A stretch of DNA of 28,765 bases from a virus. Below, piece after piece: positions 1 through 26,500 of the stretch (its first letter is position 1; every line of letters starts with the position of its first letter). The notes under the pieces are model-generated. The model was given only the letters and a program-made list of their open reading frames with translations. It did not search any database and had not been told where the DNA came from. The position numbers and the translations under genes were made by a program. Location of the stretch: positions 1-28,765 of the IMG/VR virus record IMGVR_UViG_3300035698_009200; one strand, 5' to 3'.

Positions 1-129
1 ACACGAAGTTATCACCCACGAATGTACGCCAAGGTATACCGTGCCGTAACGCCGAGATGACACCACTCTCTTGTTGCACGAGGGTGTACTTTCCATTGTC
101 CAACTCCAGTCTATATCCTGGGGTGTCAT
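1..129 (-). CDS. Hypothetical protein, cut by the window edge, with a possible frame error near the start
   Basis: An ATG at 127-129 overlaps the stop of the reductase gene (ATGA), the junction type used throughout this operon. Read from that ATG, the frame gives MTPQDIDWSW followed by an unconvincing Arg/Ser/Cys-rich stretch. The neighbouring frame encodes LELDNGKYTLVQQESG and then ALRHGIPWRTFVGDNFV. I recall similar short phage proteins that open with an L-E-D-G-K strand and continue with ALRxGxPWR. That better frame has a TAA just upstream and no ATG. One extra base in the C run at about 120-123 would join the ATG to it. So this is either a sequencing or assembly slip, a CTG or TTG start, or natural frameshifting. 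The function is unknown and the C-terminus lies outside the window. Confidence 0.5.
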   Translation of the reverse strand, partial: MTPQDIDWSWTMESTPSCNKRVVSSRRYGTVYLGVHSWVITSC

Positions 130-2111
130 CTTACGGGACAGGCTCCACCGACACACTCAGAACCATCTGCTTCGTCGAACTCACCTGCTGTTGCTATTTC
201 AGTTATAATAGTTGTTCTGTCAACCAATGCATTATACTCTTTCTCTGTGACTTCCTCGAAGGGAGCTTGCACAAAGCCGTGATCTTCATGTAGCATAAAA
301 GACAGTGTCTTGTGAAACTGATGGTAATTGTCGACCAGATACGCCTTTATTTCAGGCAACTCTTCTGGACTGTAGTAGATAGTACAGGATACGCTATTGT
401 CTGACCATATTGTTTGAAACAACCTAATAGTCTCCAACTGGCGTAGAGCAGTCATATCCTCTGCTAGAACAGTACCGTCGGGATACTTGAAAGGGAACGT
501 AGCGATCATGCTGCCCAGGTTCTGGGAGCCATCAAGCTCAAGCTTGTACTCGATAGGATAGCCATGTTGCTTACACACCTGAACTAGAGGGTGGTCTGAC
601 GCGATGGTTATTCTACGATACATGAATTTGGCGAAGCCTGGGTGTATCCCAGGTGTAACACCAGGTAACAACGATAGTGTGCCGCTCGGCTTTATCGTGG
701 TCAGCTTGATAGAGATAGGGAAGCCGTGTGCCGCTGAGTACTCGACATCGTACTCTCGTAAATCCTTGTACACTTCATCTAGCCAGGTGAGCTGCTCCTC
801 GGAGGCTTGGAGTATACCTGTGAGGCCGATACCCATACGGAGGTTCTTATGAACGACCGTTTCGGTCTCTTCATTGTGTGAACCCAGCGTCAATGAGTGT
901 TTGTTGACACGGTACAGCAGTCGGCAGACGTCCTTCATCTCGTCGATCGATTCCAGGTTAGGTAGGAACACCTCACTAAGACAACAAGTCTCGAATGGTT
1001 CCAACGACTGCTCAGCACATGGGTTATAACCTTCCACCAGAGGATCAGGATACTCAGTCTCTCCAAGCCTACCGCAGCTGCGTGACAGTTTCAGATTGAT
1101 CAGCCCATACGCCTCGCTCTTAGCCAGACCATTGGCACCCTTTTCGTATGTGTCCCAGAAGTATGGGTGCAAGTCATCGAGATCATCACACGCCACACTG
1201 TTGTTGGACATAGCACGCCACTTAGGTATGTTACCCATGTCCCAGCGCTTGGCCAATAGAAACTCAACATCATCAGGATCGCCGATGGCAATCATAGCTG
1301 AGCGTCTAACGTTGCCAGCCACAATTATCCATGCAATGATATTCATGATGTCCAGCGCATCAATCGGTCTAATGAATCGCCCCCGACGTTTCTCCAGCAC
1401 CTTTGCTATCTGGTTGATACCCCAGACCAAGTCTTCAGGTCCACTTGCGGTACCACCAAAACCTTTGATCGGAGCGCCTTTGCTGCGAACCAACGTAGTG
1501 GCAAACGTGAAGCTCCCCTTCCGAGGGCTTTGTGATAAGAACGCTGCCTTTAACGTCTTGCCCAGCAGTCGTACCCAACCTTCTCTTGAGTCGGGTACGA
1601 TAAAGTCAGCACCGTTGTCATTCACTCTTGTGGGTGCCTCGAACCATGAGGCGACCTTTGGGAGGTTAGCTACGTGGTGTCTTTGGATGTTGAATCCCAC
1701 CCCCGAACCCATCGCCAGCATGTCCATCGTCCACGTAAACGGGCGAATGGGACTATCCACGAGCGTGAAGGCGCAATTCTGGAGTGACCCCAGACCGAAG
1801 CGATCCACAGTTTTCGTGCCCGCCTGCCACCAGAAACGACCGCCTACAGACCCCTTGAGGGATAGCAGGTAACCCGCTAGCCGGATCTGCTCATCGGATG
1901 TGAACCCTGCACCGAACTGCGAATTGGCTGCGTTGACGACCCTGAGAGTGCTATCAGCGAACTCCTCAGTCGGTGCATCGGCATCCAGCAGTGTCGCGTC
2001 ATCAGCTTCTTCTGCAAGGGCTTCAAACTTACGCGCATAGGTTCGCTTGAAGGTGAGGTAACCCACGGTACTCCAAGGGATGTTTACTTCAGGCAGATCA
2101 TCGTATATCAT
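126..2111 (-). CDS. nrdJ: Adenosylcobalamin-dependent class II ribonucleotide reductase, monomeric RTPR type
   Basis: Reduces ribonucleotides to deoxyribonucleotides by a cobalamin-generated thiyl radical, without oxygen and without a second subunit. The 661-aa protein has the family marks. LQNCAFT near residue 110 supplies one redox cysteine. NPCAEQSLEPFETCCL near residue 363 supplies the thiyl cysteine, the catalytic glutamate two residues later, and the partner cysteine. IKPSGTLSLLPG is the conserved phosphate-binding loop. The extreme C-terminus, ECVGGACPVR, matches the C-x4-C relay that passes electrons from thioredoxin. Length is somewhat below the roughly 740 aa of the Lactobacillus enzyme. 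A TTG two codons upstream is possible, but the ATG at 2111 is better spaced (9 nt) from GAGG. It overlaps the preceding gene by 14 nt. Its place at the end of the replication operon fits dNTP supply. Confidence 0.95.
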   Translation of the reverse strand: MIYDDLPEVNIPWSTVGYLTFKRTYARKFEALAEEADDATLLDADAPTEEFADSTLRVVNAANSQFGAGFTSDEQIRLAGYLLSLKGSVGGRFWWQAGTKTVDRFGLGSLQNCAFTLVDSPIRPFTWTMDMLAMGSGVGFNIQRHHVANLPKVASWFEAPTRVNDNGADFIVPDSREGWVRLLGKTLKAAFLSQSPRKGSFTFATTLVRSKGAPIKGFGGTASGPEDLVWGINQIAKVLEKRRGRFIRPIDALDIMNIIAWIIVAGNVRRSAMIAIGDPDDVEFLLAKRWDMGNIPKWRAMSNNSVACDDLDDLHPYFWDTYEKGANGLAKSEAYGLINLKLSRSCGRLGETEYPDPLVEGYNPCAEQSLEPFETCCLSEVFLPNLESIDEMKDVCRLLYRVNKHSLTLGSHNEETETVVHKNLRMGIGLTGILQASEEQLTWLDEVYKDLREYDVEYSAAHGFPISIKLTTIKPSGTLSLLPGVTPGIHPGFAKFMYRRITIASDHPLVQVCKQHGYPIEYKLELDGSQNLGSMIATFPFKYPDGTVLAEDMTALRQLETIRLFQTIWSDNSVSCTIYYSPEELPEIKAYLVDNYHQFHKTLSFMLHEDHGFVQAPFEEVTEKEYNALVDRTTIITEIATAGEFDEADGSECVGGACPVR

Positions 2112-2313
2112 GGTCAACCCCCTCTACTAATACATCATGTGCGAGGTTGAACAGTGGGATGCGGTTAGGGTGCTCTTTAAACAAGCTATCAAGGTATTCC
2201 ACACTGAAGCCTCTAGCCATCAAAGCCCCATATATAATCTCTATCGCCCGGATTCTAACAAAATCCTCCATAGGAGCACTGCCTACAAATTCTTCTATCT
2301 TATTTAATTGCAT
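2098..2313 (-). CDS. Hypothetical protein, 71 aa
   Basis: A small, mostly helical, soluble-looking protein beginning MQLNKIEEFVGSAPMEDF with no signal or membrane segment. Its ATG shares one base with the stop of the 39-aa gene upstream (TAATG), and its 3' end overlaps the reductase start by 14 nt. It is therefore held in the coupled chain between primase-helicase and reductase. I do not recognise a family. Charged residues are spread evenly and there are no cysteines, so no metal site is apparent. Confidence 0.75.
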   Translation of the reverse strand: MQLNKIEEFVGSAPMEDFVRIRAIEIIYGALMARGFSVEYLDSLFKEHPNRIPLFNLAHDVLVEGVDHDIR

Positions 2314-2432
2314 TATTTATGTCGTCCTATTTTGAAGGTTATCTGTGACATCTTCTTGTAGGCTTCATTGACGAAGATTAAAGCTGATGCGTTGGTGTGT
2401 ATCCACTTAGTAGGTGGTATTGTATTAAGCAT
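2313..2432 (-). CDS. Hypothetical small protein, 39 aa
   Basis: This short frame begins MLNTIPPTKWIHTNASALIF. Its ATG overlaps the last codons and stop of the primase-helicase gene by 8 nt, and its TAA overlaps the next ATG (TAATG). Both junctions are of the type used by recognised genes here, and AAGAG lies about 11 nt upstream. The frame stays open further upstream inside the helicase gene, but the junction points to this start. It is basic at the C-terminus and has no membrane helix. Function unknown. Confidence 0.6.
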   Translation of the reverse strand: MLNTIPPTKWIHTNASALIFVNEAYKKMSQITFKIGRHK

Positions 2433-4113
2433 TGGTGGGTTTACTCTTAGGAACTTGTATCTTTGTGAATGTCTCTTTCTTGCTAAAGCTCTGAGCTGCA
2501 ACGCCGAGACGACCAGTTTTAAAATGATAAAACGCACTATCGACCTTTCCTGTGAGACCTGTAAATCTACACTTCAAAGCACTCATTTCGATAGTATTTC
2601 TTTCGGTTTCGTCTTCGGCTGTCATGTTGCGTGCAAACGCGATAATGTCAAACGAAATTTGTTTCAACGAACCTGAGCCACGTATATCATCAAGGGATGG
2701 TAGCTTACCCTCTTCAAAAGATTTTGTGCCCACTTGGACTTTCCTGAGATGTGAGACCAGACCTATCCAGACGGGATGGCGCTTGGTCAGTCTCAAGAGA
2801 TCGTTCATAACTTTGTCCTGTGCTTCATTACCCACAAGGTTGTCTACACCTTCGGACACAAGGATTGTGATATGGTCAATGAATAGCTTCTTACAGCCAG
2901 ACAGTGCCATATACTCAAGTTGATCCATTATCGAGCTATCGCTAATAGATCCTTGATGGTCCAACAGAATAATCCTGTCATCACCGAACACTTTGTCAAA
3001 ACCCACCTTGAGTTCTGCCAGAGGTATTTCTTCATCAGCTGGATTGCGGTTCAGGGCCATGCCTGCTAGTTTCCGCGCTGTTTCAGCTGGTGACTCTTCA
3101 AGGGATACGATGCCTATCTTCTCATCACTTGTTTCAAGGATGTGCATCATTATCTCTCTTAGTAAGGTACTCTTACCCGAGCCTGTTCCCGATATGAACA
3201 TCGTTATCTCACCATCCCGCATGCCTTTGATCTTGTCATTCAAGCTTCCTACGCATGGTGGGTATGGGAACGATGGTGTATCGTTGAACTTTACTAGTGA
3301 CTCCCATAGATCTTCCTTACCGATAATACCGGCGGGGATGAAGGGAGCAGCATCAAATAGCGCTTGCATCAATGCTTTTGGAGATTCATTTACAAGGACA
3401 TCGCTTGCGTCGTTGTAGAATAGCTTTGTTATCTTTGCCTTGTCTGCCCCGATTATTCTGATGGCTTCCGTACGCGCCTTGGCACCTGCATCATCTTCGT
3501 CAAAACATATAATCACCTCGTCAAAGCTGCGTATCCATTCACGCTTCTCAAGCAGTGACTTGGTCATAGCAGACGAGGACAGACCTACGACTGGGTAGAA
3601 TTTCTGATAGCGGTCGTAGCTCGCCTGAGCCACCGACAATGCATCTATCTCACCCTCGGTTATGATCAACCGCTTACCGCCACTTTGGAAATGCTCTATG
3701 CCAAACAAGCTGGAAGACTTATTAACCCAACGGAAGTCCTTGTTCTCCACGTCGCGGATCTTGTAAGCTTTGCCATCATCGTAGGGATAGTAGTGCGTGT
3801 CTATGTTCCCTGCACCGTCATACGACACACGGACATGGTAGAAGTCTGTCACTGGCTTCTTTATGTCACGCTCACGAAAACCTCTCACGGGGTACTGTTC
3901 TATTTCAAGTATCTCCCCGCTGCCTTTCGTCTTCGGTTTTGGAACTGTCTTATCTACCTTCGTGAACTGTTCAACATCATCCTCAAAGTCTTTCTTGAAG
4001 AACGATTGACATGAGAAACAGAAAGAAGAACCATCATCGTAAACCTGTCTTGCATCACTTGAGCCACATTCAGACTTCAAGCAAGGCTGGTCTTTCTGAA
4101 CAACATTACCCAC
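2425..4113 (-). CDS. T7 gp4-like bifunctional primase-helicase
   Basis: Unwinds the phage replication fork as a hexamer and makes primers for lagging-strand synthesis. The 562-aa length is close to T7 gp4 (566 aa). Domain order: a four-cysteine zinc ribbon (C11, C16, C32, C35, with the T7-like CGSSD string); a TOPRIM primase core with EGEIDALS and IICFDEDDAG; then a RecA-type helicase with Walker A GTGSGKST near residue 310, Walker B KKLFIDH, the WIGLVSHLRK strand, and RGSGSLKQ near the arginine-finger region. The longest open frame starts at 4254, but that part reads through the upstream membrane gene. The GTG at 4113 has AAGG 8 nt upstream and overlaps that gene's stop by 8 nt. Unlike T7 gp4, the C-terminus is basic (PKSKPTNA), not acidic with a terminal Phe. 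Confidence 0.95.
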   Translation of the reverse strand: MGNVVQKDQPCLKSECGSSDARQVYDDGSSFCFSCQSFFKKDFEDDVEQFTKVDKTVPKPKTKGSGEILEIEQYPVRGFRERDIKKPVTDFYHVRVSYDGAGNIDTHYYPYDDGKAYKIRDVENKDFRWVNKSSSLFGIEHFQSGGKRLIITEGEIDALSVAQASYDRYQKFYPVVGLSSSAMTKSLLEKREWIRSFDEVIICFDEDDAGAKARTEAIRIIGADKAKITKLFYNDASDVLVNESPKALMQALFDAAPFIPAGIIGKEDLWESLVKFNDTPSFPYPPCVGSLNDKIKGMRDGEITMFISGTGSGKSTLLREIMMHILETSDEKIGIVSLEESPAETARKLAGMALNRNPADEEIPLAELKVGFDKVFGDDRIILLDHQGSISDSSIMDQLEYMALSGCKKLFIDHITILVSEGVDNLVGNEAQDKVMNDLLRLTKRHPVWIGLVSHLRKVQVGTKSFEEGKLPSLDDIRGSGSLKQISFDIIAFARNMTAEDETERNTIEMSALKCRFTGLTGKVDSAFYHFKTGRLGVAAQSFSKKETFTKIQVPKSKPTNA

Positions 4114-4318
4114 CAGCACCACCTTTTCGCACCTTTTCTTGCTGCAGTTGATGTGCAACCATTGCTGCAAATCCAAAGACAAGTGAGAGGATGGCCCATT
4201 CACTTGTCTGTAACTCACTGAAACCCATCTCGATACCGAATGACAGGATGTCATACAGCAAGTAAAGGAGGATACTCGTTGAGGTCATGGCGCAGATCGC
4301 ACCTATTATCTTATACAT
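4106..4318 (-). CDS. Small two-helix membrane protein, 70 aa
   Basis: Two hydrophobic stretches are visible, around residues 3-24 (IIGAICAMTSTSILLYLLY) and 42-56 (WAILSLVFGFAAMV), joined by a short polar loop and followed by a Gln/Lys/Gly-rich tail. The ATG overlaps the preceding stop (TAATG), and the 3' end overlaps the GTG of the primase-helicase. An inner-membrane location is inferred. It lies between a nuclease and the helicase, but nothing in the sequence assigns a function. Confidence 0.75.
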   Translation of the reverse strand: MYKIIGAICAMTSTSILLYLLYDILSFGIEMGFSELQTSEWAILSLVFGFAAMVAHQLQQEKVRKGGAGG

Positions 4319-4794
4319 TAAAACTTCTCCAGACGTGATTCAGGTTCTAAGTTGATTGCGCGCTCCAAACGTGCTTTGTGGCGATCTTTGACCATCTCTT
4401 TTACAGGCCAGGATACCGCTTCCACACGTGTGTTATACCAATCTTTTGTTGTGGGGGCTTCCACATGGCACAGAGACCACGTCTCCGCATATGACAAACC
4501 ACTCTTTGTGGTGTACTGATCTAGGCATATGAAGTCGAATTCGTTGTCACCCCGTTCATCGAACATCTCAGCCAGTAGTTTAGAAGATGATGTGTAGTAC
4601 TTCCAAGAGGTTTCTTTGCCCTTGTTCTTACCTTTCATCACACGAAAGAGCTTCTTACCGAGGTAGAACCGCTCCATGTAGTTGTCTCGCACGACATATA
4701 TAAAGCCTATGGCATTCCCCATCTGTTCAGGGAATAACCAATGGCCATTATTGAATGCCGGCACGACTATCTTTGGTGCCGAGGGTACTCTCAT
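4318..4794 (-). CDS. Probable GIY-YIG-like (SegE-type) endonuclease
   Basis: The 158-aa protein has GFIYVVRDNYMERFYLGKK early on. This resembles the GIY...YIG strand pair as it appears in the phage SegE-like subgroup, which then has a basic stretch and a SxWKxYxSSS motif; here it is SWKYYTSSS. A glutamate in SYAETWSL may be the metal-binding acid. The family cuts DNA, either as homing nucleases or in phage genome processing. The choice here is open, since the gene is tightly coupled inside an operon and does not look inserted. The ATG at 4794 overlaps the upstream stop as ATGA; a TTG three codons earlier is less likely. The family call is by motif memory. Confidence 0.6.
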   Translation of the reverse strand: MRVPSAPKIVVPAFNNGHWLFPEQMGNAIGFIYVVRDNYMERFYLGKKLFRVMKGKNKGKETSWKYYTSSSKLLAEMFDERGDNEFDFICLDQYTTKSGLSYAETWSLCHVEAPTTKDWYNTRVEAVSWPVKEMVKDRHKARLERAINLEPESRLEKF

Positions 4795-5360
4795 CCGTTC
4801 CAAGCACCTCTCAGCCAGCTGTGCAGTTGTGCCTCTGCGATGGCGCTTTTACCCCCACCACGCCTGGCTCCAAACACAGTCATCTCACCTTTGCGAAGGC
4901 CAACCAAAGCTGGTTTGTCAACGGTGGGACTTATCCTCAAACGCCCGACGGACTGATCAAAGTATAGATCCTCGTGAGTCACTCCTTCAACGCTACCGCC
5001 GTAGAAGTATGTAAGAGTCTCTCGCTTAGAGAGTGTTCTATCCTTAAGGACTCTGACAGTCCTTACAAATGGATCCCTTCGAACCTTGCCGTCAAGGCAG
5101 AGCTTTTGACCGAGTGCGCCACGCTCGGCAGCGCTGTCAAACGAGGCGGGATACTCACAGTTGAAGTGCGGATGTATTCCACCACTAACGTCGCCAACCA
5201 TCCGAATAGTACCTGTAGGTTTGATGACCATGAGGCGGCCATTGCGACCGAGGTATACAAAACCCTTCACAGGTCGAATGGGCATTATATTCTCGGCGTG
5301 CACGATGGCCGGAGCCACCGCAGCTGCAAGACAACCCTTTAGGAAATTTCTTCTATTCAT
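4791..5360 (-). CDS. Tat-signal protein with a C-terminal P-loop
   Basis: The N-terminus MNRRNFLKGCLAAAVAPAIV is a near-ideal twin-arginine signal (RRxFLK, hydrophobic core, likely cleavage after VHA). A middle region of about 115 residues has short beta-like segments and no family I recognise. Near the C-terminus, KGEMTVFGARRGGGKSAIAE has the form of a Walker A P-loop like that of DnaB or RecA-type ATPases. Only about 15 residues follow it, so there is no Walker B or rest of the fold. Length is 189 aa. The ATG at 5360 is chosen because it overlaps the upstream stop (ATGA) and has AGGA 8 nt before it; a start at 5369 is possible. Export and nucleotide binding are hard to reconcile in one chain. 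Function unknown. Confidence 0.75.
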   Translation of the reverse strand: MNRRNFLKGCLAAAVAPAIVHAENIMPIRPVKGFVYLGRNGRLMVIKPTGTIRMVGDVSGGIHPHFNCEYPASFDSAAERGALGQKLCLDGKVRRDPFVRTVRVLKDRTLSKRETLTYFYGGSVEGVTHEDLYFDQSVGRLRISPTVDKPALVGLRKGEMTVFGARRGGGKSAIAEAQLHSWLRGAWNG

Positions 5361-5557
5361 GAACTCCATCCTATTCTCTTGGAAATGGCTACGGCCTCAC
5401 CTTCCGGTAACGCCCTGCGTCTGGCTGACATCTGCTCCATATAATAGATACCGCTGTCGCCCTGAAAGATCAAGTCATTCAGACCAGCGAACCTATTTCT
5501 ACAAAGTAACATTTCGTAGCTAGCCCCATCAATCCATAACTTATCAGCCTCGATCAT
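5357..5557 (-). CDS. Hypothetical protein, 66 aa
   Basis: A small soluble protein beginning MIEADKLWIDGASYEMLLCR, followed by a basic stretch (SARRRALPEGEAVAISKR). No motif is recognised. Both ends overlap neighbours as ATGA, so it is probably translated by coupling within the small-gene run between the exonuclease and the Tat-signal protein. The single cysteine gives no metal site. Confidence 0.75.
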   Translation of the reverse strand: MIEADKLWIDGASYEMLLCRNRFAGLNDLIFQGDSGIYYMEQMSARRRALPEGEAVAISKRIGWSS

Positions 5558-5772
5558 AACCCACCCAGCTCAGCTATGGGATTGTACGGCTCAAATGAAA
5601 TACCCTTGGCAAGCGCCATGGCTTTCCCTGTAAGCAGCATATGGATAGTGTTGGCCAGCAGCGTTGGGTATACCGTCACTACACGCCCACTTCGACCCGA
5701 AGTCCCTGAAGGATACTTGGGCACGACAGGCGCCTTGCTGCGTGGTTGCTTGTGCTTCATTTTACTCTTCAT
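5554..5772 (-). CDS. Hypothetical basic protein, 72 aa
   Basis: The first 35 residues are rich in Lys, Arg, Ser and Pro (MKSKMKHKQPRSKAPVVPK), followed by a more hydrophobic segment (VTVYPTLLANTIHMLLTGK). That segment is too polar for a certain membrane helix. The basic N-terminus could contact nucleic acid, but this is only composition. ATGA junctions at both ends support it as a real gene. Confidence 0.7.
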   Translation of the reverse strand: MKSKMKHKQPRSKAPVVPKYPSGTSGRSGRVVTVYPTLLANTIHMLLTGKAMALAKGISFEPYNPIAELGGL

Positions 5773-5993
5773 TGTAACACCTCAAATTTACGGATCATTA
5801 CCTTCAAATCACCTTCGTAGACACGTATCCGATTCAATGCCTTATTGGCATCGCGGGTATTTGCCTTCTCGATGAACTCTGTGTTGGCTAGCTTATTAGC
5901 CCTTGTGTAGGAGCTTTGCAGACCAGCCACCACTTGTGTTGCTCTCCAGTTACCTTCATGGAAGAGGTCAAGTACGTATACATTGTCACTCAT
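5769..5993 (-). CDS. Hypothetical protein, 74 aa
   Basis: Begins MSDNVYVLDLFHEGNWRATQ and is then helical and charged. The frame opens four codons earlier, but this ATG lies in the 8-nt overlap with the 38-aa membrane gene's stop (ATGAGTGA), a typical coupling site. It ends in an ATGA junction with the next gene. No family recognised; no cysteines or membrane segments. Confidence 0.7.
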   Translation of the reverse strand: MSDNVYVLDLFHEGNWRATQVVAGLQSSYTRANKLANTEFIEKANTRDANKALNRIRVYEGDLKVMIRKFEVLQ

Positions 5994-6102
5994 CTTCATC
6001 CTCACTTGCGGTTATTGCGTGTACAGCCCAAAGACCGGCTCCGAGTATGAGCAAGACAAGCACACCAATACCCCATACGGCGTGCTCCGGCTCCCAACTC
6101 AC
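5986..6102 (-). CDS. Tiny single-span membrane protein, 38 aa
   Basis: The GTG start overlaps the exonuclease stop as GTGA, and the stop overlaps the next ATG by 8 nt. The product is MSWEPEHAV followed by a strongly hydrophobic run (WGIGVLVLLILGAGLWAV) and an acidic tail (ASEDEDE). One transmembrane helix with an acidic end is clear. A holin-like or membrane-remodelling role is possible, but the actual role is unknown. No other reading of this gap is convincing. Confidence 0.7.
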   Translation of the reverse strand: MSWEPEHAVWGIGVLVLLILGAGLWAVHAITASEDEDE

Positions 6103-6956
6103 CCCAGCTCCTTGTAGATTGGCCAGTCGTCTATTGTAAAGACATCATCCAGTGTCTTAAGGATATACAAAAGTTTGCCATTCATCAACAGCATTCCAGC
6201 CCACTCGTCTGCGTACTCATGCATGTAGTAACCTGCAACCTGCTCTTGAAATTCTCCTTCTGTCTCGAACTCTGCCAGCGCCTTCACAGCTGTTATTGGA
6301 CCTACACCAGGTACACCAGGGATATTATCAGCCTGATCACCCATAAGTAGTTGCTCATAGAAGAATCTTGTGGCATACTCCTGCGTCACAGTTTCCAATG
6401 TTTTCTTTTGAGGGTTGTAGTACTTACCAGGTATACACTTCAAGTCTTTATCTATGGACACCACCACAAAGTCCTGACCTGCAGCGATACACTCCTCCGC
6501 CCAGATGCGAACATAGTCATCAGCTTCCATCCCGACTGCTTCCACAGCGAGACCTTGGGCGACCGCGAGCTTGCGCACATTACTGACGAAGGTGTTACGA
6601 GCGCCACCTTCAGCTTTTGCTTTCTCTGCTGCTGCTTCCACGGCACGCTTACGAGGTGCCTTGTAACCTGAGAAGATATCATCCCGAAAGTTAGTGCTGG
6701 ACTTGACGGCCATGAGCATATCAGTTGTGAAGAATTTCTCCATCAACTTGTTGACCATGCGCTCAAAGTTAGCCCAGGACTCTCGCATATAGCGTTCGTT
6801 TGTTTCTTTGTCGTATGAAGGCGGCACGTTACGGCCATCCTCCCCGACTTGTATCACGAAGCGATCCTGTCTCTGTTTTACTTTTGTCTGCCAACGGTCA
6901 TACCGACAGGCGAGATGACACAGAACGTCACCATCAATTATTAACTTAGTTCCCAC
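6099..6956 (-). CDS. T7 gp6-like 5'-3' exonuclease, FEN superfamily
   Basis: Degrades DNA from 5' ends. In T7-like phages this removes primers and recycles host DNA. The 285-aa protein shows the family acid clusters: IIDGDVLCH at the N-terminus, GMEADDYV near residue 145, VVVSIDKDLK near residue 165, and GDQADNIPGVPGVGPITA near residue 205. The last combines the GDxxDNIPG metal site with the helix-hairpin-helix DNA grip. The start is GTG with AGGAGG about 7 nt upstream, and it shares a base with the upstream TAG (TAGTG). It sits between the HD nucleotidase and small genes, consistent with a pathway from DNA breakdown to nucleotides. Confidence 0.93.
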   Translation of the reverse strand: MGTKLIIDGDVLCHLACRYDRWQTKVKQRQDRFVIQVGEDGRNVPPSYDKETNERYMRESWANFERMVNKLMEKFFTTDMLMAVKSSTNFRDDIFSGYKAPRKRAVEAAAEKAKAEGGARNTFVSNVRKLAVAQGLAVEAVGMEADDYVRIWAEECIAAGQDFVVVSIDKDLKCIPGKYYNPQKKTLETVTQEYATRFFYEQLLMGDQADNIPGVPGVGPITAVKALAEFETEGEFQEQVAGYYMHEYADEWAGMLLMNGKLLYILKTLDDVFTIDDWPIYKELG

Positions 6957-9944: not shown

Positions 9945-10368
9945 GTTCCATCTCATCTTCCAGTGCTTCCAACTCACGCCGAAGGTTGTGAACCACATTC
10001 TCGGCTGTGCGAATAGAGACCAGCAGCTCCTTGTAAGCCTTCGTGGCTTTCTTTATCACTTCGTCGTTAAGCTCTTTGCGAGCTTTCGCTTTTACGTCCT
10101 TCATGTCAATACCGATATCGGCCATGTTACGTTTCCTGTGTTTAAAGTCGTGGCAAACGCCACAGAATTCGTGCTCACCTGCATTGAGGGAAGCACAGCC
10201 TACGTACCCGTAATGCACTATTCTCTCCGGGTTATTGTTACAGTTATTTTCCAAGGTAGGTGCCACCAGCGACGCGCCCTTAGTCGCTCTACGAGTCCTC
10301 TCCTCTCGCCATTCTGCAAGAGCGATTTCAGCAACAGCTGAGACTACAGGAAGGTCATCATCACCCAT
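9931..10368 (-). CDS. Hypothetical protein with a possible zinc site and coiled coil, 145 aa
   Basis: The middle has CASLNAGEHEFCGVCHDFKH, where spaced Cys and His residues could bind a metal ion in the manner of an HNH-like or zinc-finger knuckle. The C-terminal half (residues about 80-140) is highly charged and heptad-like, predicting a coiled coil. The ATG overlaps the preceding stop by 8 nt (ATGGGTGA). No catalytic HNH pattern is complete, so no nuclease claim is made. Confidence 0.7.
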   Translation of the reverse strand: MGDDDLPVVSAVAEIALAEWREERTRRATKGASLVAPTLENNCNNNPERIVHYGYVGCASLNAGEHEFCGVCHDFKHRKRNMADIGIDMKDVKAKARKELNDEVIKKATKAYKELLVSIRTAENVVHNLRRELEALEDEMEHGVF

Positions 10369-10549
10369 CGAGTATCTCCGATTTACAGCAGGGGCAGCTT
10401 ACTTTACGTACAAAGTCATCCGCACTATCAGACCAGCCAGCTGAATCCATGTCTACCGAACCGTCATCATAGTACTTCACAGTCTTTCTCTTAAACAAGT
10501 ACCTCTTGTCCAAAACCATGCCGCACTCTTCACAAGATGTCAGGTTCAT
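10361..10549 (-). CDS. Zinc-ribbon protein, 62 aa
   Basis: CEECG at residues 6-10 and CPCC near residue 52 make a four-cysteine zinc-ribbon pattern, with an acidic loop between (DDGSVDMDSAG). Such small ribbons often contact nucleic acid or RNA polymerase, but the sequence does not show which. It starts within an ATGA junction with the 58-aa membrane gene and ends in an 8-nt overlap with the next gene. Confidence 0.75.
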   Translation of the reverse strand: MNLTSCEECGMVLDKRYLFKRKTVKYYDDGSVDMDSAGWSDSADDFVRKVSCPCCKSEILDG

Positions 10550-19272: not shown

Positions 19273-20387
19273 GATTGAGGCTCCTTGCCGAAAATGCCCA
19301 GCAGCGTATTCTCGATCTCAGCCACATCGACTTCAGCAACACCATCAAACTTCAGATTGACACGCTCGGCTCCCCGCAACGCTTCGATCAGCCTCTCGAC
19401 ACGTTCAATCTCCTGCCCACACTGTGAGATGGCGACGTCGTGATTAACGTCAGGACGTACCGTACGGTCCAGTAGAGGCACTCCGACATTGCACAGACTA
19501 TCCAGCAGAACATTCAGATTGTACTGTAGTCTCCCAAACATCTCACCGTCCTCGCGGAGATCCTCGCGGGCTTCTTTCAGCTTAAGCTGAAGCTTATCCG
19601 CACGCTTTTTCAAGATGCGGTGATGTGTCTCACCGACAGTGACTCGGGCATTCAGTTCGGAGACTAGTGCACAATGCTGTTTTTCCAAACGTACTGTCCT
19701 TTCGTCATACTGCACACGTAGTACCTTGTTGCCTTCTTCCAATTCAACACAGCGCCGTTCCGAGATGTCCAGTCGGCTCCTCAGATCGTCGAGGGCGTAG
19801 GCAGCATTAATGCTAGCTTCCGAGCCAGGAAGATTCCTTGAGGCAGCAGCCTCGGTAGGTGATTGACCAGCCAAGTGAAGTTTACAACTTTGCAAAGCCA
19901 GCGCAAGATCTTCGCTCTGCTTCACCGAGGCACGTGTGAGTCCTTTCTGAATTTCCAGTTTCATAGCTAAACCTTTCAGTTCATCGCTTGCGTCTTTCTC
20001 ACGAGAGGTCGCTGCATTGAGATGCCCGTTTAGACAGTCGATTGTGCCGTCACGAGATTCCAAAACCTTGGCGTACGTCTCACAGTTACTGGTGAGCTGG
20101 TCAACTTCGGCTTGCAGCGTGTCCACATGTGAGCTGGCGAATCCATATTTCTCCTTGACTTCACGTGCCTGCTTTTCGAACTGTCTAGATAGCTGTTGGC
20201 TAGGTGTCGGCTCTACCTCTCTCTTAGTGGCTTCCATACCCTGGGTGTGCCGGATTACGCGTAGAATGTTTTCAATATTCTTCCCACGTAATTTGTTGAT
20301 GTTGTCTGCTCCCAGACGGATCAAAGAAGCCAGTGTACTGGCTGTGTAGAGTTGTTCAGCTGTTATTAAATATTGGTCTGCGATCAT
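19269..20387 (-). CDS. Long coiled-coil protein, 372 aa
   Basis: After a helical N-terminal 60 residues (ITAEQLYTASTLASLIRLGA), the region from about 65 to 330 is highly charged with heptad spacing of Leu, Val and Ala, predicting a long interrupted coiled coil. A short non-coil segment near 300 (CNVGVPLLDRTVRPD) precedes a last helix and an acidic C-terminal strand region. No signal or membrane segment and no enzymatic motif. It resembles structural or tether proteins in form only. AAAGGA precedes the ATG. Confidence 0.7.
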   Translation of the reverse strand: MIADQYLITAEQLYTASTLASLIRLGADNINKLRGKNIENILRVIRHTQGMEATKREVEPTPSQQLSRQFEKQAREVKEKYGFASSHVDTLQAEVDQLTSNCETYAKVLESRDGTIDCLNGHLNAATSREKDASDELKGLAMKLEIQKGLTRASVKQSEDLALALQSCKLHLAGQSPTEAAASRNLPGSEASINAAYALDDLRSRLDISERRCVELEEGNKVLRVQYDERTVRLEKQHCALVSELNARVTVGETHHRILKKRADKLQLKLKEAREDLREDGEMFGRLQYNLNVLLDSLCNVGVPLLDRTVRPDVNHDVAISQCGQEIERVERLIEALRGAERVNLKFDGVAEVDVAEIENTLLGIFGKEPQS

Positions 20388-20944: not shown

Positions 20945-21373
20945 TTAAAACAGGGGTATTACGACACCTACTGACAAGATGTAATGAGGTGCGTATAAAA
21001 CCTTGATGTACTTATAACGAGCTGTTAGCAGTCCCATGTCGTAGTTATCACTGTCGTAAACATACTCAGTAGGTGTCTGCTTGTAGCCTGTAGCGGTCCC
21101 TGCAATAACACCGAAATACTTGCCCTCATAGCCAACATAGTAGAGGTTGGATAGGTTACCGAAAGAGTTATTATAGTGACTGATTCCTGTTAGCACACCC
21201 ATCTCTGTCTTATATTCAAAGCCGATCCCGGTGGTCTTTCGATTGTATTCGCAAGGGGCGTCACCTATCTTACAGTCATTGAAGTGTTGTGTAAATAGCG
21301 AAACGGTCATTGAAAGGTCTCCTGCGTTAGCGGAAGAGGCGAGTAGTAATAGTAGAGCTATCGAGAGTTTCAT
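20945..21373 (-). CDS. Exported small outer-membrane beta-barrel protein, 142 aa
   Basis: The ATG at 21373 begins a Sec signal peptide, MKLSIALLLLLASSANAG, with cleavage after ANA. The mature part alternates short strands with aromatic and Gly/Ser residues and turns rich in Asn and Asp (GVLTGISHYNNSFGNLSNLY, then YVGYEGKYFGVIAG). It ends in a strand with terminal Phe (LSVGVVIPLF), the signal for barrel insertion. About eight strands would fit, as in PagP- or OmpX-sized barrels. Two cysteines in the first loop could form a disulphide. The frame extends upstream to 21454 only through promoter repeat 3. Likely roles are receptor masking or envelope modification, both inferred. Confidence 0.7.
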   Translation of the reverse strand: MKLSIALLLLLASSANAGDLSMTVSLFTQHFNDCKIGDAPCEYNRKTTGIGFEYKTEMGVLTGISHYNNSFGNLSNLYYVGYEGKYFGVIAGTATGYKQTPTEYVYDSDNYDMGLLTARYKYIKVLYAPHYILSVGVVIPLF

Positions 21374-21396
21374 TTGGTATCCATAGTTTGTTTTAT

Positions 21397-21430
21397 TTCT
21401 TTTCATATAAGATACCATTAGTTGCGCGTT
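21397..21430 (-). promoter_or_regulatory. Promoter-like repeat 3
   Basis: In minus-strand sense: AACGCGCAACTAATGG, then TATCTTATATGAAAAGAAA. It overlaps the last bases of the 32-aa gene's stop and lies just upstream of the exported barrel gene. With copies 1 and 2 it shares an almost unbroken 30-nt core. The expected transcript start is near 21404. Confidence 0.6.
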
Positions 21431-21527
21431 ACGGGAGCCACGTCCTGAGCACAAAATATATACACACCCACAGTACGACGGGCCAATAGCTCACCTCACC
21501 CATCTGCGGCTCTATCGAGTCTTCCAT
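21429..21527 (-). CDS. Tiny membrane protein, 32 aa
   Basis: Begins MEDSIEPQMGEVSYWPVVLW with one hydrophobic helix (WPVVLWVCIYFVL) and a short basic end (RTWLP). GGAG lies 6 nt before the ATG. An acidic N-terminus and basic C-terminus favour N-out, C-in. It follows the lysis genes and the hairpin at 21552. A lysis accessory role is possible from position only. Confidence 0.6.
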   Translation of the reverse strand: MEDSIEPQMGEVSYWPVVLWVCIYFVLRTWLP

Positions 21528-21581: not shown

Positions 21582-22046
21582 TTAAACTGTCCTCTGATAA
21601 TGAGGACCATCTTTAATTTTCTTCCAAAACATACCGGCTCGGTTTCTAGGGTTTAAACTCTCCCAAAAGGTTCCCAGTTCTTTTGGATACACCAAATCAC
21701 CTCCGCTTGTGAAATAGATGTCGGCAGCACACTTCTTTAAATGCATACTGTCCAGTGTCAAAGACCGCTTAGTCTTGACATATATTTGCTGTTGCTCCAA
21801 TGTCCTTTGGAACTCGCCTAGCCTCATAGAGTATCCCAACTCAAAAGCCTTAAGCATTAATTTACAGATATCCTCGGCGAAAGCTTCTTGATGCTGTCCG
21901 AGGGTCATCTTGGGTTCAGGTTCGGTGACCAACGTGATCTTTGAGGCGGTCATGTACTGCGCGATGTCAGTGAGCACACTCTCTGCTTGTGACGATGTCA
22001 CACCCGCAATCCGTAGTATTTGAAGTAAGTGACGTGCATCATCCAT
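21582..22046 (-). CDS. Endolysin, M15-family peptidoglycan peptidase
   Basis: Cuts peptide cross-bridges or stems in the cell wall at the end of infection. The 154-aa protein has the M15 zinc site: SMHLKKCAADI (His102, Asp109) and GPHYQ (His149). The stretch from residue 47 (MTLGQHQEAFAEDICKLMLK) matches how many phage M15 endolysins begin. The first 46 residues are an extra, helical N-terminal part here. An internal start at residue 47 lacks a ribosome site, so the long form is kept. No signal peptide or membrane segment, so release should need the holin. It overlaps the holin gene by 8 nt. Confidence 0.88.
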   Translation of the reverse strand: MDDARHLLQILRIAGVTSSQAESVLTDIAQYMTASKITLVTEPEPKMTLGQHQEAFAEDICKLMLKAFELGYSMRLGEFQRTLEQQQIYVKTKRSLTLDSMHLKKCAADIYFTSGGDLVYPKELGTFWESLNPRNRAGMFWKKIKDGPHYQRTV

Positions 22047-23150: not shown

Positions 23151-23502
23151 TAATCACCTCTCTGAAGACCTTGGAAGGCCAGTTTTCAACTTCAATTTCA
23201 TACACGCCACTCACATCGAAATTCAAAGTGATGTCGGTACCATCAGCTACGAATTGAAGTCCCGCGCTACCTTTGATCTTTACAGGAACTCCACTTGGAA
23301 CTCCCTTCAAGACGCCCGAAGCTAACGAAATACCGTGCGGTGGCCTTTGCAGTACATCAAAGGACTCGGAGAAATAAGTGCTGTCTGCGTCAAACTCTCC
23401 TTCGACCAATGACTGCGCCGTCAAAAACTCAGCAGGCGGTGGGCTCGAATAGCTAATACTGGAAATAATACCACCATTAACATCTACCTTTACATATCTC
23501 AT
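23140..23502 (-). CDS. Tail-associated beta-rich protein, 120 aa
   Basis: Begins MRYVKVDVNGGIISSISYSS and looks beta-rich throughout, with an immunoglobulin-like rhythm in the C-terminal half (VPVKIKGSAGLQFVADGTDI, then SGVYEIEVENWP). Its start overlaps the gpJ-like gene's stop as ATGA, so it should be made together with the tail tip. A tail-fibre adaptor or small head-binding part is possible; nothing is specific. Confidence 0.7.
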   Translation of the reverse strand: MRYVKVDVNGGIISSISYSSPPPAEFLTAQSLVEGEFDADSTYFSESFDVLQRPPHGISLASGVLKGVPSGVPVKIKGSAGLQFVADGTDITLNFDVSGVYEIEVENWPSKVFREVINVS

Positions 23503-26500
23503 CTCTTAAACTCCGTAATCTCAATGAAGGCGTTGGTGAGTTCAATGGCGTTCGCAATGTCTGCGATACGATCAAATTCTGAATTCACCACTTCAAGGGC
23601 AATGCCATACTCTAAGTCCGACGCGACCGGATTGTCTATCACTATTGCGTATTCGAAAGACTTCATACCTAAGTACAAAGCCTGACCATCCGGCACCCAG
23701 CCTTGGAAACCCGCAGTTGCGTCGTTCCACCCATAGTTTCGCTCTAAGCCTACGCCTGTGAAAGCACCGTTAGATAACTTGCGATAGATAACCGACGACA
23801 CACTTAGGTAGTTTCTCCAGATGTAGTCGAGTTTATCAACGATGCAACCTGGCCCGTTCTGCGCAAACTGACAACCCACCCTTATACGTAGAGATGTATT
23901 CGTGTCGGACAAGACAATCGCAGCCGCTAATGGTCGCTGTATCCACGCCCAAGACCCTCTACCGATATACCGAAGAATGTTACCTTCATACGTTTTCCAG
24001 CCGAGCCTCACATGCACATCAGAGACCCATGGAGCAGCGAGTTCTGCATACACCGTCTGTGTGACAGCCCCAGGGTCGATATCGATCGTAGTTACCGTAT
24101 CCTGATTGGCAAGTGCGCCCGTATTGTAAGTACTCACCGATTCCCAAACCGATCCGGTCCACCTCGCCAATAAGCTTGTACTGGTATTGTACCAAAGATC
24201 TCCCAGGTCAAGCAACGGTGTGTTTATGACGGTAGGTTGCGTCGTTGTGTAATACGTAGCAATCTTACCATCTGCCGTAGATTGCGCATTGACGGCTTTC
24301 GAGTCGGCAGTTGAGGCCGCTAACTGAGCCGCAGCGATGTCCAGATCCTTGGCCACTGCGTACGCAGTCCCGTTGTGCCGGTAAAGCGTATTATTGTCGT
24401 CGGTGTCGAACCAGAGGTCGCCCAGCGTGCCTGCTGGAGCTGTCGGTTGGAAGTACGTATCGACTTTGCCCTCTGCCGTAAATTGCGCTTGGGCTGCATC
24501 AAAGAGAGCCTTCCCTATCTCGTTGTCCTGTAAAGCAACCCAAGCTCCATTATAACGATGCAACTGATTATCATCTGTATCGATCCACAGATCGCCTATC
24601 ACCAGCCCTGTCACTGGAGCCGTAGCCTGAGCATACGTCGTAGGTGCTACGTTTCCGACTAACTCCCAAGCAGACCCACTCCATCTCTGTAATCGGCTTG
24701 TGTTGGCATTGTACCACAGATCACTCACTACTGGCGCCCCTGGCGTAGCTGTCTGGTAATAGGTGGTGCTACCTGCTTCGCCTTTGAAAGGTGACCACGT
24801 GTAGTCCAAGTAGTCCAGAGAATCTAGGATAATAGCATCCGTCAGCACTCCGATGTAGTCCCCTGTATCTTCGCCGGCATTTGCGGTGAGGGGGTTGCCT
24901 GAAGGATTGTCGGAATACTTGATATGCAGATAGCTGCTTGTACCATTATCTCCTGCTGTCCCATTCACCCCTGGAAGCCCTTGCTCGCCTTTGAATGAAC
25001 TCCACACATAGCTTACTGTGGGATCAGAGCCTTCAGCCTGTACCGCTTGGTTCGCTGCTATCCCTATTGAGATCGTGGTGCTGATGGGTATATCATACAT
25101 GTGGCTAGGCAGCGTTGGATTAGCCAAGTCACTATACTTGATCCAGGTGTAGAACGTTACACCGTCATCGCCTGTCGCACCGACAATCCCTTGATCGCCT
25201 TTGAGACCCTGTGGCCCGACGATCAGACTCCAGGTATATGCCAGTGGATCTGTCCCTTCGAGGGCAACTATTTGATTAGGTGCCAAGCCTATGTACGACA
25301 TTCCAGTGGGATCATTTACAAGACCCGTCCCATCGGCATTCGGAGCATACTTCACCCACGTATACGTAGTGATGCCGTTAGCGCCTGCATCTCCTGGCAC
25401 GCCTTGTGGCCCTCTGAATCCACTCCAAGTATAGTCCCCAACAGTAGAACTAGGCGTAGCGCTTGCACTTACAAGCATACCTAATGCTGCTGTGGCGGCT
25501 CCAGGTGAGACCGTCATCGTCGTGGGAGGAGCATCGAAGGCTTCAGTACTGTAGCGTATATGCGTGTAGCTGCTAGTGCCATTCGTACCGTTATCGCCTG
25601 CGGGTCCACCTATCAGACTCCAAGCATAGTCGCCGGGAATAACTCCCTCGACTGCTGTGGACTTGTTATGCGCGAGGCCTAAATAGAGCTTTCCAGTAGG
25701 ATCGTCCGTAAGTCCTACCGTGCCCGTAGCGTTGTCAGCATACTTTATCCACGTATACGTAGTGACACCCGTGCCGTCTGTACCAGCATACCCATTGACC
25801 TGCGCCGTAGCGTCACTCCAGAAATAAGGAGATGTCAACGCCGTGAGGTTCTCGATGATAGTCACCTGGGCTTCATACAACGTGGCACCCGCTACCGGAG
25901 CAGGGACACCTGTCGATGACCACCCAGCCGGCACCCCAGTTGAGACGCCCGTCGCCCAAGTGTAAGTAGAAGCGACAGCCGCGAATGCTGCAGGTACACC
26001 GACATCCCACTTAAAGATAGATATCGTAACCGTGCGTCCCTCGTCAACCGTAGGATACGCGGCAACTGTCCCGTTAGCTGTCCAGTCCACGTTTGTGAGA
26101 CCCACACCCGCTGTCTCAAAAAGAACCTTAGAGGTTTGGAACAGAAACAAACCTTCGGTGGAAGGCCTGGCGGGAACAGTAGTTGCCCAGCCAGCAAGAT
26201 TGGCGAGACTGGTCTGGGTGTCTAATGTCCAATCATACACTGATGAGGCGCCTGCCCCGATGATCGGTTGCACTGTGCCCCAGTGGAACAGTTTAATTCT
26301 CCCTGACTGCGAACCAGCGCTAAGCAACAGCACCGGAGTGCTCCACAGGTTAGTATCTTCGTTCGGCCCCACACCTATACGGCTGAAGCTTCTGTAACTG
26401 ACATACGTCACACCTAGACCTGCGGGGATAGCCTCAGACCAGCCAGCAGGAATAGCTGAGAGCACTTCAGATGGAAACGCTACCGAGCCACCTACAGGCG

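Follow-up and report, generated by a model that had tools for sequence, protein, structure and literature searches.

Tat signal peptides, as described by the profiles PF10518 and TIGR01409 and known notably from alphaproteobacterial periplasmic binding proteins, are the closest counterpart of the N-terminus considered here. Folded proteins are the normal cargo of the Tat pathway. The viral leader has in common with these signal peptides an n-region of the SRRxFLK type, a hydrophobic core almost without charges and an A/V-x-A cleavage-like site, but it adds a conserved [SN][LI]MP[VI][KR] past the presumed cleavage site, is almost confined to viral contigs and carries unrelated short tails instead of a periplasmic domain.

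The tail of the protein at our locus can be compared with two phage replication enzymes. With the Walker A region of DnaB and gp4 (phrog_19, phrog_239, PF03796) it shares G[LM]RxGE[IM]TxF...GxGKS in the same order, but only 25-30 residues of a domain of more than 200 are represented, and Walker B, the linker and the ring-forming parts are lacking. With class II ribonucleotide reductase (RNR; TIGR02504, phrog_367, PF02867) it shares the loop KP[ST]GT...G(V/D)xxGIHPxF, although over about 30 residues only, and the complete barrel and the catalytic cysteines are absent.

Some host sensors are known to bind phage capsid proteins (CapRel), and short capsid peptides can act as triggers (T4 Gol); in T4 Gol/Lit and CapRel a short or whole capsid protein is the recognition signal inside the host (PMC9712102). 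The trigger in those systems is the real capsid protein, whereas in the family described here a segment of it is imitated by a separate protein that bears the leader, and no defence protein has been linked to the leader family. Small phage proteins that act on capsid assembly, such as the virion-assembly inhibitors of phages and prophages (e.g. PMC10884400), would also be expected to follow the capsid sequence; these inhibitors are anti-phage defences, and the accessible part of that source mentions neither a Tat-like leader nor imitation by a tail.

The window, by which we mean the whole stretch of DNA analysed, is a virus record of 28,765 bases with a T7-type replication region whose genes all lie on the minus strand. 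The region encodes an ssRNAP, an SSB-like protein, PolA, a 5'-3' exonuclease, a gp4 primase-helicase and a class II RNR, where we take the names SSB and PolA from similarity to relatives and general knowledge. A sequence-only reading of this DNA had described an ORF at 4791-5360 with an RRNFLKG leader and a C-terminal GARRGGGKS, placed in a replication operon, and both the ORF with its two motifs and the setting proved to be real: three small ORFs and the exonuclease (6099-6956) lie upstream, and the GIY-YIG nuclease, gp4 and RNR genes lie downstream (Table 1). The protein starts MNRRNFLKGCLAAAVAPAIVHAENIMPI and ends GARRGGGKSAIAEAQLHSWLRGAWNG. GGAG is found 3 nt upstream of ATG 5360; the alternative start ATG 5369, which is also possible, gives the 192-residue form, here called P0001, whose residue numbers are used throughout.

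Table 1. Coordinates of the gene under study, of the segments of its product and of neighbouring genes that bear on them.
Feature	P0001 residues	Position in window	Strand	Remarks
Coding sequence		4791..5360	-	189 aa from ATG 5360; stop at 4791
Leader module	4-34	5268..5360	-	MNRRNFLKGCLAAAVAPAIVHAENIMPIRPV; PF10518/TIGR01409, family pattern and alignment
RNR-like segment	40-70	5160..5252	-	LGRNGRLMVIKPTGTIRMVGDVSGGIHPHFN; resembles PSGT...GIHP active-site loop of class II RNR
Ambiguous segment	107-131	4977..5051	-	VLKDRTLSKRETLTYFYGGSVEGVT; resembles phage RNAP (15367-17601) motif B and a 62-aa protein (10361-10549)
Possible capsid-like segment	112-168	4866..5036	-	57-aa ungapped match to G003 major head protein 28-84
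Helicase-like segment	155-183	4821..4907	-	LVGLRKGEMTVFGARRGGGKSAIAEAQLH; resembles Walker A region of gp4/DnaB
GARRGGGKS, Walker A pattern	167-175	4845..4871	-	Inside the helicase-like segment
GIY-YIG (SegE-like) nuclease gene		4318..4803	-	PF19835 E 2.5e-15; overlaps 3' end of coding sequence
T7 gp4-like primase-helicase		2425..4254	-	phrog_239 E 2.3e-146; outside the element; resembled by C-terminal segment
Class II ribonucleotide reductase		126..2117	-	phrog_367 E 2.3e-110; outside the element; resembled by middle segment

The core genes of the window are about 30-74% identical to those of the IMG/VR contigs L003-L008, and phages DSS3_VP1 (Noahvirus, Naomviridae) and Roseobacter phage CRP-7 are more distant kin. 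A homing-endonuclease island was considered and rejected, since the GIY-YIG gene is resident and syntenic in L003-L008, with orthologues 46-62% identical in the same place before gp4; the gene therefore gives no evidence of recent homing insertion. Felixounavirus-type relatives of this nuclease gene are labelled 'NAD synthetase', which looks like a misannotation. In L003 the exonuclease adjoins the GIY-YIG gene directly, which indicates that the coding sequence and the three small upstream ORFs are extra in the lineage of the window; a leader gene was not detected in any relative of the window's phage. The three small ORFs (5357-6005, minus strand), also absent from L003, had no family match save weak PHROG hits for 5769-6005. 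Elsewhere on the minus strand of the window, 20945-21454 encodes a protein like PagP (phrog_3600, E 4.6e-9; antimicrobial peptide resistance, lipid A acylation), which as an outer-membrane enzyme is unusual for a phage and lies near an endolysin-like ORF (21582-22046), and 23499-28706 encodes a tail/host-range protein of 1735 aa with collagen-like G-x-y repeats and repeated 'TYTWIKY' blocks.

P0001 has the twin-arginine RRxFLK and the hydrophobic core by which a Tat signal peptide is recognised. Against a cut-off of 22.7 bits, Pfam PF10518 scores 20.4 when the whole protein is the query and 23.3 when only its first 43 aa are used, and NCBIfam TIGR01409 gives 18.2 bits (cut-off 16.7); RRxF[LM][KR] near the N-terminus arises by chance at a rate of 6e-5 in shuffles of the same protein. 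The Tat-like n- and h-regions are followed by a likely signal-peptidase site V-x-A and the conserved [SN][LI]MP[VI][KR], and every position of the family pattern RRx[FL]...PA[IV]VxAx[SN][LI]MP[VI][KR] is matched. The Tat-type signal proposed earlier is thus supported, and the leader is in addition a conserved virus-specific module. A role of the leader as a targeting or anchoring part is plausible.

P0001 is a member of a newly seen family of small chimeric proteins, in which a non-conserved tail follows a conserved leader that is about 31 residues long and similar to a Tat signal. The leader consensus is RRxFL, 7-11 hydrophobic residues and APA[IV]VxAx[SN][LI]MP[VI][KR]. The DNA pattern used for searching covered only a part of it, APAIVxAx[SN]xMP, and matched 82 IMG/VR contigs; in 257 Gb of bacterial and archaeal genomes it matched only 5, of which four belong to metagenome-assembled genomes. 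Nearly all of the 82 contigs encode a small protein that starts with the same roughly 31 residues and is almost entirely different downstream; the leaders can be aligned across otherwise unrelated proteins. In this set RR is present in 80 of 82 and RK in the remainder, F or L stands two residues further on, and the hydrophobic core is mostly 7, 10 or 11 residues long. The RR, the F/L, the core length and the basic residue after MP[VI] lay outside the search pattern, yet RR and the basic residue are nearly universal. With variant patterns the collection came to 105 distinct tails, with RR kept in 100, and the mean GRAVY of the leader is 2.06. We regard the existence of a virus-specific leader family as practically certain. 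No match to the leader was found by tblastn in cultured phages, a search in which the low-complexity filter may mask the leader; P0001 as a direct query found no homologous relative, and a search of published papers returned none on such a leader family. A query in which the leader had been lightly edited was matched only in its unedited tail. Two leader genes stand in tandem at L184:12149-13039, L201:3380-4270 and L058:1324-2096, with different tails within each pair.

The tail of P0001 probably contains an RNR-like and a helicase-like segment, judging from profile comparisons. Residues 40-70 match NCBIfam TIGR02504 (E 6.5e-6) and phrog_367 (E 0.0067), and the likeness falls at the same place in three libraries, the matches to PF02867 and PHROG_367 being weak; 12 of 25 residues are identical to the phage's own RNR, and an own-lineage RNR profile gives 12.1 bits on the tail, against a maximum of 4.5 in 5000 shuffles. 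The surroundings of the Walker A pattern, LRKGEMTVFGARRGGGKS, match DnaB/gp4 profiles when the C-terminal 59 aa are used (phrog_239, E 1.7e-4; phrog_19, E 2.2e-4), and an own-lineage gp4 profile gives 9.0 bits, with a maximum of 6.7 in 5000 shuffles. Among the ORFs of the window, the own RNR (z 6.9) and the own gp4 (z 6.4) are the best two partners of the tail.

Other parts of the tail are less clear. Residues 107-131 give 3.9 bits with the RNAP and 6.8 bits with the 62-aa protein, each reached by 1 of 5000 shuffles, and PHROG_38315 is matched at E 6.5e-4 on this segment. The capsid likeness of residues 112-168, which overlaps both neighbouring segments, is suggestive only: the score of 52 against the N-terminal part of the capsid of the relative G003 (phrog_247 major head protein) was reached by 10 of 4000 shuffles (p about 0.003), no such match was found with the capsid of the relative G005, and the own capsid gene of the window's phage lies outside the 28.8-kb contig. 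A likeness to PolA motif B, seen with the Pelagibacter HTVC019P DNA polymerase in the phage collection (27% over 132 aa, E 0.9), was rejected as the own-lineage PolA profile gave no match. Single-sequence AF2 of P0001 reached a pLDDT of 34.5. P0001 is without a close relative, and its segments represent single-sequence similarity of 25-30 residues. It is conceivable, if rather improbable, that the leader is real and the tail of P0001 an ordinary fast-evolving orphan, with RNR-like and helicase-like stretches that are chance or convergent loops. This would fit the lack of any relative found with a similar tail, the occurrence of the Walker A pattern alone in 2% of shuffles and the competition of PolA, RNAP, capsid and the 62-aa protein for parts of the tail, but it agrees poorly with an RNR match in three libraries (reaching the NCBIfam E-value given above), with scores that none of the 5000 shuffles equalled for either RNR or gp4, and with the unmistakable imitation in relatives of the same architecture.

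The sequence-only reading had taken GARRGGGKS for a Walker A loop like that of DnaB/RecA ATPases, with no space for a Walker B motif. The second point stands, as the 17 residues C-terminal of GKS leave no room for Walker B. The pattern [AG]x4GK[ST] alone occurs in 2.2% of shuffles, and GKS is present in 1 of the 105 family tails, that of P0001 itself, so that homologues retain the RR end but lack the GKS end (0 of the 104 other tails). Pfam, PHROG and PDB gave no full-domain match of P0001 to a complete P-loop domain or RecA-like fold. A functional ATPase was therefore rejected, Walker B being absent and GKS not conserved, and we have little doubt that GKS is not a working NTPase site. Since the tail segment of about 30 residues around it resembles the phage's own helicase, the P-loop is most likely part of a helicase imitation and not an ATPase. 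A Tat signal and a Walker A pattern are both present in P0001, which speaks for a Tat-exported or anchored protein that binds nucleotide or another phosphate ligand, but with GKS in a single member of the family, no place for Walker B and no complete P-loop domain, such a protein is very unlikely. The Tat-type leader of the earlier interpretation is thus supported, and the P-loop as a nucleotide-binding loop is not.

Many tails of the family contain short segments (about 25-60 aa) that resemble core proteins of the same phage, chiefly the major capsid protein. At E<=0.01, 16 tails match when compared with all other ORFs of the loci, with no match for reversed tails, and 9 of 10 matched proteins that were checked are major head proteins, belonging to six PHROG families. 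With 23 capsid proteins as targets, 45 of the 105 tails match at E<=0.01, where the 105 are not all independent, about 20 being from one subfamily; the controls gave no match when an equal number of random phage ORFs took the place of the capsids, none with reversed tails and 2 with shuffled tails. Other small ORFs of the same contigs match capsids in 22 of 3245 cases, which is close to the rate of false positives; the strongest of these matches is a further leader gene that the search expression had missed (G012). In that phage two leader genes lie in tandem, and they resemble different segments of the phage's capsid, residues 54-101 and residues 291-342. When 21 testable tails were compared with 22 capsids, the own capsid was the best match for 10 and the runner-up for 3, in two of the latter cases tied with an identical phage, and 8 of the 21 were without resemblance to their own capsid. 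We are confident that imitation of the capsid, preferentially that of self, occurs in many members.

The imitated parts vary among phages and include the N-terminus, middle and C-terminus of the capsid protein, RNR, helicase and a tailspike, the last in L096, whose tail resembles a pectate-lyase tailspike (PF12708 above cut-off). The capsid-like segments often correspond to the capsid N-terminal region. About half of the tails match nothing detectable. Among second leader copies (G031, G043, G052), 1 of 5 further tails reached z above 4 against the own capsid. The tail of one second leader gene, G043:C1:39430-39519 (locus L132, local 19430-19519, minus strand), reads like a tail-collar domain (GEIIMANGSAPSVLIPCDGR), for which Pfam gave no collar match at E 0.05. 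The predicted structure of subfamily A3 has an overall pLDDT of 61; the part that resembles the capsid N-terminus forms a C-terminal helix (54-86), for which most values exceed 70, and the leader helix is of low confidence.

The codon positions of tails and capsids give information about the origin of the resemblance. In the pairs checked, in which tail and capsid share a contig, agreement is 0.58-0.79 at codon positions 1-2 and 0.28-0.45 at position 3; amino acids agree and third positions are near-random, which indicates that these tails are not recent copies. Recent duplication or misassembly would give similar values at the three positions and is therefore disfavoured. An individual tail could show this pattern after recent capture from a diverged capsid of a different phage, but the excess of same-phage matches makes such capture unlikely as a general account. 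Homologous tails have a median pN/pS of 0.41 between them, the leader being lower still. For the family, these patterns suggest that selection keeps a tail segment similar to the phage's own core protein, in a protein that is probably membrane-directed.

Tails are otherwise highly variable, 81 of them falling into 54 clusters, many unrelated, and tails of one subfamily exchange blocks. L187, L188, L198 and L204 have the same leader and first tail block (QHLHELDGIGLTSIAHPV) with different second blocks, which points to block exchange between tails; one of the second blocks is like the capsid N-terminus and one like capsid residues 83-131. Such shuffling, together with the slower evolution of leaders than of tails, would also be expected if the leader were a mobile cassette that captures random gene fragments and is functional alone, for instance by binding or clogging Tat. 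In neutral fragments, however, agreement at codon positions 1-2 would decay at the same rate as at position 3, contrary to what is observed, and neither the large over-representation of capsid segments relative to random ORFs (45 against 0) nor the preference for the capsid of the same phage agrees with recombination debris, an origin that we consider improbable.

The explanation that we find best overall, at about even odds, is that of a leader-borne, self-like tail acting as a decoy at the inner membrane, with the P-loop as helicase imitation. The leader would take the protein to the inner membrane by Tat-dependent insertion or export, and there the tail would substitute for one segment of the parent protein and engage whatever partner binds that segment. 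Most likely it would act as a decoy, keeping a host sensor or another inhibitor off the real protein. The decoy function as such is tentative and less likely than not. Periplasmic tails could not reach cytoplasmic sensors, so that a decoy would need an uncleaved or retained form, and the varied imitated segments indicate no single partner, which counts against this explanation.

The same leader and tail could instead serve as a membrane tether, in which the self-like segment co-assembles with its parent (capsid N-arm, helicase ring or RNR) and brings capsid assembly or replication to the inner membrane. The N-terminal region makes inter-subunit contacts in many capsids, and the frequent likeness to this region, the hydrophobic leader and the position of the RNR/helicase-like member in a replication operon with those very genes are in line with a tether. 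On the other hand, there is no clear clustering of leader genes beside the capsid gene, the strand often differs, the imitated segments are not consistently one interface, and close relatives of the window's phage have no detectable leader gene. We regard a tether as not very probable, and the imitation of different capsid parts and different enzymes, together with the missing leader gene in these relatives, slightly favours a decoy.

It is tempting to speculate, although this is doubtful as yet, that there is a general phage self-mimicry, in which a virus-specific Tat-like leader presents, at the host membrane, tails that imitate capsid or replication proteins of the phage itself. Equally speculative is the further step that these imitations follow the parent protein through evolution and, in conflicts between phage and host or among phages, serve as decoys or triggers. 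Phage genomes are full of small orphan genes, most of which lack an explanation, and the genes described here form a recognisable class among them, with a fixed leader and tails that copy the phage's own capsid or, in P0001, its RNR and helicase. Amino-acid likeness despite diverged synonymous sites strongly suggests that resemblance to self is selected for; it also directs attention to a partner bound by the parent protein, for which a search is now possible. If the proteins are decoys, their tails would reveal the phage segments that are read by host sensors.
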